Source: Methanoculleus sp. MH98A (lineage in GTDB: Archaea; Halobacteriota; Methanomicrobia; Methanomicrobiales; Methanoculleaceae). From it: a DNA stretch of 54,310 nucleotides. The position numbers were made by a program, and so were the translations under genes. Below, piece by piece: positions 50,972-52,480 of the stretch (position 1 is its first letter; the number at the start of each line of letters is the position of its first letter). Below the pieces are notes generated by a model, which was not told where the DNA came from, did not search any database, and saw only the letters and a program-made list of their open reading frames with translations. Where the stretch lies: positions 1-54,310 of the forward strand of contig NZ_JMIO01000012.1 of the NCBI RefSeq assembly GCF_000691865.1, in the 5' to 3' direction.

Positions 50972-51046
50972 GGGGCAGTAGGGTAGCCTGGTCCATCCTA
51001 GAGCGTTTGGGACGCTTTGACGGCAGTTCGAATCTGCCCTGCCCCA
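50972..51046 (+). tRNA. tRNA-Pro (anticodon UGG)
   Basis: The acceptor arms GGGGCAG (50972-50978) and CTGCCCC (51039-51045) pair perfectly, with discriminator A at 51046. The T arm is GGCAG-TTCGAAT-CTGCC (51022-51038), and the anticodon arm is GAGCG-TTTGGGA-CGCTT (51001-51017) with anticodon TGG. The D arm starts GGGTAGCCTGG. CCA is not encoded. A box A-like CTATTTTTG lies about 35 bp upstream. The nth start codon lies only 7 bp after the end. Confidence 0.95.
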
Positions 51047-51052
51047 TCTATC

Positions 51053-51721
51053 ATGAACCGCACGACCGCCTGCGAGATCTACCGCCGTCTTCTTGAGCAT
51101 TATCCCATTGTCGACGGCAGGCGGCATTTTCTCGAGTTTCATAACCCGTATGAGACGCTGATCCTCACGATCCTCTCGGCGCAGACGACCGACCGCGCCG
51201 TGAACGCCGTCCGCGACGATCTCTTCTCCCGCTACCCGACGCCGGAGGCGCTCGCCCGCGCGGAGCCCGGGGAGGTGGAGCCGCTCATCAGGACGATCGG
51301 GTTCCACCACACGAAGGCGCGCCATATCGTCGGGGCGGCAAGAAAACTCGTCGCCGAGTTCGGTGGCGAGGTCCCGCGGACGATGGAGGAACTTCAGACG
51401 CTGCCCGGCGTCGGGAGGAAGACGGCAAACATCGTTCTCTCCCACGCGTTCGACATCAACGTCGGCATCGCGGTCGACACCCACGTCCGCCGGGTCTCGA
51501 AGAGGCTGGGGTTCACCGACAGCACGAACCCCGACATCATCGAGCGCGATCTCATGGCTCTCTTCCCCGAGGAGGCCTGGCGGGACATCAACTACCTCCT
51601 GATCCGCCACGGGCGCGCCGTCTGCACGGCAAAGAACCCGAAGCACGAGGAGTGCGTCGTCGCGGACCTCTGCCGGTATTACCGGGAGCTGGGGGCTGCA
51701 AAAGAGAAGGGCGGAGAGTAG
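51053..51721 (+). CDS. nth: Endonuclease III (HhH-GPD DNA glycosylase/AP lyase)
   Basis: Nth removes oxidised pyrimidines and cuts the abasic strand in base-excision repair. The 222-residue protein has the helix-hairpin-helix LPGVGRKTANIVL near 118-130 with the catalytic lysine in it, and the conserved aspartate in VDTHVRRVSKRLG near 142-154. In the C-terminal Fe-S loop the expected C-x6-C-x2-C-x5-C reads C-x6-H-x2-C-x5-C: the second cysteine is histidine, so the cluster may be His-ligated or lost. It begins 7 bp after tRNA-Pro without a visible ribosome-binding site, so it may be translated from a processed transcript. Confidence 0.92.
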   Translation: MNRTTACEIYRRLLEHYPIVDGRRHFLEFHNPYETLILTILSAQTTDRAVNAVRDDLFSRYPTPEALARAEPGEVEPLIRTIGFHHTKARHIVGAARKLVAEFGGEVPRTMEELQTLPGVGRKTANIVLSHAFDINVGIAVDTHVRRVSKRLGFTDSTNPDIIERDLMALFPEEAWRDINYLLIRHGRAVCTAKNPKHEECVVADLCRYYRELGAAKEKGGE

Positions 51722-51734
51722 GCCGGACGGGGGC

Positions 51735-52480
51735 GGCTCGCGGTTGCGCTCTGAGCTGTTGTTCTCCGGGACTCCCGCAAAGCCCATCTACGGATTTTTT
51801 CGGACTCTGTTCTTATTGGAATGCTGCCTATCCCATGCACGGCTTTCCAGGGGACTACGCACCTGCGGTGCTCGTGCTCCTGCCCTTCGGCCAGTCGCCA
51901 GTCCAAGACCTTCGGTCTTCTCCAGCGATGTCCCTATGGGACATCGCTTATCGCCACGCACTGCGCCCCCCCTCGGGGGCGGGAGGAGCGCGAAGCGCGG
52001 GCGGTGGGGGTCACAGGTAGAGCCTTACGGGGTAGAGACAGGGGAGGGGGGCTGCACCCCCCTCGAAGACCAAAGGTCTTCTCATGCTCACTTCGTTCGC
52101 ACCTCGCACCTATCGGTGCTCAAGCTCGCTTCGCTCGCACCTCAAAGGCCTTCGGCCTTCTCGTGCTCCGTTCCTGTCGGAACATCGCACTCCCCGTCAG
52201 CCCCTCCTCGCACTTTCGGTGCTCGAACTCCGCTCCTGCGGAGCGTCGTTCCCCCAATGGCGATATTCCCACGGTCCAGTGTACCGGGATCTCCCACAGT
52301 TATGATGTATGTTCGAATTTGAAACGTCATCTGGTTCAATCGCAACTGTTCATGAGAATTGGATAAGAGCACTACCAGGTTCAAATTACGTAACCGACGG
52401 AAATCCGTGGATGGGTTTGTGCGATTGCCTGGGGTTTCAGGAGAGTATAACCGTATCAGACTTCGTCCCGCGATCGTCAA
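51735..52480 (+). repeat. Intergenic mosaic repeat, copy R6
   Basis: This fills the 832-bp gap between convergent nth and the phosphate transporter gene. It has a 45-nt exact match (51839-51883) with R3, then the hairpin AAGACC-TTC-GGTCTT (51905-51919), TATCGCCACGCACTGC (51949-51964), and a G-run hairpin (GGGGAGGGGGG at 52041-52051, CCCCCCTC at 52057-52064). A tight array of at least seven short hairpins runs through 52067-52250 (stems AAGACC, GCACC, GCGAGC, AAGGCC, GTTCC, GCAC, GCTCC). The module CCAATGGCGATA...CCAGTGTACC and a tail (52308-52348) similar to R3 follow. No coding sequence is credible. Confidence 0.82.

Follow-up and report, generated by a model that had tools for sequence, protein, structure and literature searches.

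A natural histidine at the second iron–sulphur cluster position of an endonuclease III from Methanoculleus, and its recurrence in related archaea

Described cluster variants and the Methanoculleus enzyme

The cluster motif of the DNA glycosylases is given as Cys-X6-Cys-X2-Cys-X5-Cys in the accessible text of PMC11138216, and the motif of 160 MutYs from one hydrothermal field is likewise described as four cysteines in the accessible portion of PMC11078426. Clusterless MutYs, from which the cluster motif is absent, also exist according to that portion, which cites Trasvina-Arenas et al. 2016 for MutYX. Engineered replacement of a single ligand is described for the D. radiodurans EndoIII2, where C199S (position I of C199/C206/C209/C215) gave an unstable protein with a [3Fe-4S] cluster and an apparently unaffected activity (PMC9268735, in extract). 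Natural ligand sets of three cysteines and one histidine are described for the NEET proteins and IscR, which belong to other protein families and hold [2Fe-2S] clusters (extracts of PMC11138216). For MutY, the title of Messick et al. 2002 (Biochemistry 41:3931), as cited in PMC12000561 and PMC3584444, reports noncysteinyl, histidinyl coordination of the [4Fe-4S]2+ cluster by mutagenesis.

The protein described here is encoded in a window of 54,310 nucleotides (the whole stretch of DNA that was analysed), which is contig C12 of the draft genome of Methanoculleus sp. MH98A (2.54 Mb, 306 contigs). The gene, nth, occupies positions 51053 to 51721 of the forward strand, stop codon included, and specifies a 222-residue endonuclease III. 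The curated equivalog model TIGR01083 matches the product at 229.8 bits against a cut-off of 211.7, which places it within endonuclease III; the HhH-GPD fold (PF00730) scores 91.2 bits (cut-off 26.2), and the cluster-loop family PF10576 (EndIII_4Fe-2S) scores 31.7 bits (cut-off 20.5) at residues 191–207. The frame stays open upstream from a TTG at 51017, and a methionine stands at the 51053 start in every genus orthologue, and in most order orthologues, that were aligned. The expected catalytic lysine, Lys123 (in GVGRKTAN; 51419–51421, forward strand), and the expected catalytic aspartate, Asp142 (in VDTHV; 51476–51478, forward strand), are both invariant in an alignment of 50 sequences, and we take them to play the catalytic roles of the lysine and aspartate of the bifunctional enzymes.

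An AlphaFold model of the protein, built with 50 sequences and free of the cluster, has a mean pLDDT of 96.6, and its match to the endonuclease III–DNA complexes reaches a Z score of 28.9 (1orp), with an rmsd of 1.5 Å over 211 residues. Over the canonical endonuclease III structures (2abk from E. coli, 1orn, 1orp and 1p59) the Z scores range from 26.3 to 28.9 at ∼40% identity, and the catalytic pair K123/D142 and three of the four cluster cysteines are shared with them. The fourth is not. The loop, at 51623–51673 on the forward strand, was delimited from the alignments and PF10576 and reads C191-TAKNPK-H198-EE-C201-VVADL-C207. Cys191 (ligand I; 51623–51625), Cys201 (ligand III; 51653–51655) and Cys207 (ligand IV; 51671–51673), all on the forward strand, are invariant in the 50 aligned sequences, whereas the second cluster cysteine is replaced by His198, with the codon CAC at 51644–51646 of the same strand. 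Since the loop aligns without gaps to three solved Nth sequences (1p59, 1orn and 2abk), all of which have cysteine at position II, His198 is a point replacement of the second cluster cysteine. This agrees with the original prediction, which was confined to positions 51620–51721 (from just before Cys191 through the stop codon) and held that the loop was kept with one residue exchanged; the spacing is exactly C-x6-H-x2-C-x5-C. As this departs from the canonical four-cysteine motif, we class the protein as an endonuclease III variant with a non-canonical ligand set.

The sole other cysteine of the protein, Cys7, was considered as a compensating ligand and rejected, being found in many orthologues with cysteine at II and absent from two with histidine there (L047 and L048).

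How the replacement relates to the described variants can be stated position by position. A clusterless MutY (8uuc) is among the structure matches to the model, and it shares with the window protein a superfamily and a natural departure from the four-cysteine motif; there, however, the motif is absent, whilst here the loop is intact, with three invariant cysteines and a histidine as the fourth residue. The D. radiodurans C199S protein is likewise an endonuclease III in which a single cluster cysteine has been exchanged, but that change was engineered, at position I and to serine, whereas the present one is natural, at position II and to histidine. The NEET proteins and IscR resemble it in their natural Cys3His ligands, and differ in cluster type and in family. 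The nearest likeness is to PDB entry 1kqj, a mutant of the E. coli MutY catalytic domain, which has histidine at the second ligand with identical loop spacing and matches the model with a Z score of 19.7. Chain 1kqj_A is identical at 39 of 39 residues to a 39-residue query carrying the histidine, from which four further MutY sequences depart at that residue only. Unlike the window protein, in which the histidine is natural, fixed in the clade and set in an endonuclease III, 1kqj is engineered and is an adenine glycosylase. We take 1kqj to be the structure belonging to the Messick et al. 2002 study of histidinyl coordination in MutY. Because 1kqj shares the position of the histidine, and the title of that paper reports a histidinyl-coordinated cluster, the window replacement is by analogy the natural counterpart of a laboratory MutY mutant reported to keep its cluster; the window loop has both features of that type, histidine at the second position and the spacing kept.

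The immediate neighbour of nth, outside the cluster loop, is a tRNA-Pro(TGG) gene at 50972–51046 on the forward strand (ARAGORN; Rfam RF00005), which ends 6 bases upstream. Of 10 homologous loci examined, 8 clearly have it directly before nth; at L047 the match extends past the end of the retrieved sequence, and at L049 there was none, but little upstream sequence is available there. On the 3′ side of nth, positions 51858–52248 (forward strand) carry dense, short, imperfect repeats around small palindromes, and three direct-repeat families lie within 51700–52400. Rfam gave no match in this repeat-rich stretch.

Conservation of the histidine in the genus and family

A contig search with the window Nth returned ten archaeal records at 83–94% identity, seven of them named Methanoculleus and three carrying higher-rank names. 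The M. sediminis and M. chikugoensis proteins both bear the histidine (the M. sediminis locus, L037, being the same place as in a same-genus genome, G012). The only bacterial match, a Woeseia record, has cysteine at II.

The search of 35 genus genomes gave the same picture at larger scale. Counting the window, 29 orthologues extend over the loop, and every one has histidine at position II; one further orthologue is cut before the loop. Five genomes (G013, G016, G017, G019 and G021) gave no nth orthologue, of which G016 and G017 are 94 and 95% complete; their missing genes reflect either assembly gaps or real loss. In the 28 genus orthologues besides the window, the histidine codon is CAC in 23 and CAT in 5. 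Elsewhere in the family, histidine was found in both orthologues of genus g3 (L046 and L047) and in the single orthologue of g4 (L048), and cysteine in those of g2 (L049) and g5 (L050). Amongst 60 fetched family and order loci, 3 have histidine (L047, L048 and L052) and 57 have cysteine.

These distributions bear on the possibility that the histidine is an error of sequencing or assembly. The window does come from a draft assembly of 306 contigs, but the same residue recurs in 28 further genus genomes under two codons. Because all 29 genus orthologues carry histidine, specified by both CAC and CAT, His198 is not a base-calling error, and the chance that the contig is at fault is practically negligible. 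The original prediction had presented the histidine as a peculiarity of one protein, and had named cysteine in all relatives, or a CAC/TGC miscall, as signs of an artefact. The comparison of orthologues that it called for turned up neither sign, and the peculiarity proved to be clade-wide and recurrent.

Position II across the phylum

To gauge recurrence we surveyed one phylum, in 392 genomes, with a pattern requiring histidine at position II. Matches occurred in 44 genomes, 33 with true histidine loops and 11 with chance matches only. True and chance matches were sorted by a position-specific score built on cysteine-type loops, with the fixed positions of the pattern omitted: eight scored histidine loops lay between 20.5 and 34.3, and twelve chance matches at or below −8.7. 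The other true loops were either found again amongst the scores of a search not selected for histidine (see below) or were genus orthologues aligned directly. True loops fell in seven family-level groups, f1, f2, f7, f10, f14 (presumably Methanocellaceae), f22 (presumably Methanotrichaceae) and f30.

The replacement is not confined to nth orthologues. It also occurs in Nth-like proteins below the TIGR01083 cut-off, in another f14 group with the Lys/Asp pair and in MutY-like proteins, which have tyrosine at the lysine position. One f14 genome (G239) has three kinds of glycosylase with the histidine (L205, L226 and L235), another (G248) has two different HhH glycosylase kinds with histidine at II (L195 and L233), and an f7 genome (G232) also has two (L207 and L221). 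When five accessory Methanoculleus paralogues were fetched, four had histidine (L247–L250, from G006, G014, G026 and G012) and one, L251, had cysteine; these four are MutY-like, and TIGR01084 stays below its cut-off in the two that were scanned, L247 and L250. The idea that a lineage converts all its paralogues can be dismissed: G395 has a cysteine paralogue (L189) beside a histidine one (L211), the Methanoculleus genome G004 keeps the cysteine of L251, and in f14 a Glu/Asp-type paralogue (L255, genome G266) has cysteine at II.

Two further analyses addressed which residues and positions are involved. In the first, 201 rows were aligned, 194 of which have a Lys/Asp or Tyr/Asp catalytic pair, all but one of them extending over the loop. 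Position II in these 193 rows is cysteine in 139 and histidine in 54, with no other residue, and positions I, III and IV are all cysteine; the set is enriched for histidine, as 15 of the 80 input genomes were chosen for it and 29 of the 54 histidine rows are Methanoculleus. The seven remaining rows are fragments or members of a more distant Glu/Asp subfamily, and five Glu/Asp rows (L240 and L243–L246) are without cysteine at IV, so that, judging from these rows, the loop varies in parts of the superfamily. The second analysis, unselected for histidine, allowed at position II, in 236 genomes, every codon whose first base is not T. Glycosylase-loop scores were reached by 24 of 60 matches (13.6 to 40.6, with 3.2 as the next below and 6.1 as the lowest for a genuine cysteine loop), and all 24 have histidine, 10 in Methanoculleus and 14 in f2, f7, f14 and f30. 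Codons of the form T-A/C/T-N at II gave no loop-like sequence among 4 matches in the 236 genomes. Histidine at the other three positions, sought in 232 genomes, gave none among 2 matches at I, 5 at III and 3 at IV. These patterns require G-[RKQHNS] before the loop and do not include tryptophan at II, and diverged loops would escape them. Within the sequences examined, then, replacement is restricted to position II and to histidine.

Some near misses deserve mention. Four near-identical matches with isoleucine at II scored 1.1 to 3.2; the one that was fetched sits in a 124-residue frame without the HhH part, on the strand opposite a 280-residue open frame. One match with histidine at I (score 0.3) sits in a 38-residue frame, also without the HhH part. 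On the frames inspected, one of four in the isoleucine case, both kinds are counted as chance. A carboxylate beside His198 was set aside as a general pattern: glutamate or aspartate follows position II in 40 of 54 histidine loops and 49 of 139 cysteine loops, with 29 of the 54 coming from one genus.

The history of the replacement was followed on two trees constructed after removal of the position-II column, one of 174 rows (LG+G4) and one of 176 rows (mixture model). Each tree needs 11 changes between cysteine and histidine, of which 6 and 5, respectively, are already imposed by the starred branches; the two trees come from fast searches, contain several long branches and give no direction to the changes as gains or losses. 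A single origin as sole cause is rejected on the changes forced by the starred branches, although in the MutY-like group some histidines are shared through descent or transfer (L235 with L247–L250, in the 176-row tree). A change from TGY (Cys) to CAY (His) takes two base changes, and tyrosine, serine, arginine, glycine, phenylalanine and tryptophan are nearer. Because of this two-base step, the finding that a metal-binding residue was reached again and again, while the remaining three ligands do not vary in the alignment of 50 sequences, looks like selection keeping a metal ligand.

Probable ligation of the cluster by His198

We consider it likely, from the sequence comparisons, that the window protein is a natural Cys3His-ligated [4Fe-4S] endonuclease III, otherwise normal, in which His198 serves as the fourth cluster ligand. 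It would then be an otherwise ordinary, active bifunctional Nth whose complete [4Fe-4S] cluster is held by Cys191, Cys201, Cys207 and His198, the imidazole nitrogen of His198 binding the fourth iron. With His198 bound to iron, the loop would stay folded and continue to serve in DNA binding. Position II is probably the sole ligand site at which a nitrogen ligand is tolerated or useful. From general iron–sulphur chemistry, a ligand set of less negative charge is expected to alter both the redox potential and the lability of the cluster, changes that anaerobic cells may tolerate or exploit. The original prediction had left the choice between a histidine-ligated cluster of altered redox potential and an unstable one, with a possible bearing on DNA charge transport. 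Of these, histidine ligation is the likelier, and instability fits poorly with histidine being the only substitute found.

The main rival to histidine ligation holds that the loop carries a [3Fe-4S] cluster or a labile [4Fe-4S] one, that His198 is not bound to iron and that three cysteines suffice structurally. It draws on the D. radiodurans C199S protein, with its [3Fe-4S] cluster and apparently unaffected activity (PMC9268735, in extract), and on the clusterless MutYs (8uuc; PMC11078426, in extract), by which the cofactor is dispensable in some relatives. We nevertheless judge it unlikely: an idle residue should also appear as serine, tyrosine, arginine or glycine, each one base away, whereas the genomes searched show only histidine, in 24 of 24 replaced loops, and do so in several lineages separated on the trees. 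Three cysteines and one histidine are also a common zinc ligand set, and the loop might have been turned into a structural Zn(Cys3His) site with no iron–sulphur cluster. This is highly improbable, given that the spacing is exactly that of a cluster loop, that PF10576 still scores above its cut-off, that the same replacement is present in 1kqj and that the title of the MutY paper (Messick et al. 2002) names a histidinyl-coordinated cluster.

Relaxed constraint is a different kind of alternative, in that it concerns the effect of the change and not ligation, and so overlaps with the preferred reading: anaerobic life would have made ligand II unimportant, and the histidine would have drifted in without functional effect. 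The named relatives bearing the histidine are Methanoculleus, which are methanogens, and more than one paralogue has it in three groups, as might be expected if constraint were relaxed. Drift, however, predicts mixed residues at II and losses at the other cysteines, neither of which was found in the sequences examined, and we regard it as very unlikely.

Returning to histidine ligation, the repeated origin of this exchange among related archaea makes it, at the level of sequence, probably a working natural variant and not a sequencing error. A further step would be that several archaeal lineages independently exchanged the HhH-glycosylase ligand from cysteine to histidine to tune the redox potential or lability of the cluster, or its proton-coupled electron transfer. 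Within each of three lineages, Methanoculleus, the f14 group and the f7 group, the swap is present in two or three kinds of repair enzyme. We put forward such tuning only as a tentative possibility.

In the literature searched, mostly non-subscription papers and these in part, we found no report of a natural histidine ligand in these glycosylases. The four-cysteine description of the superfamily, as it stands in the accessible text of PMC11078426 and PMC11138216, is incomplete for this phylum, and an engineered MutY mutant turns out to have counterparts in nature. The recurrent swap at one position offers enzymes from culturable archaea in which the redox behaviour should differ and the fold is the same, and such natural ligand variants bear on the disputed role of the cofactor. 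If the tuning reading is true, they would provide a direct evolutionary test of the idea that, in DNA repair, the cluster senses redox state or takes part in charge transport.
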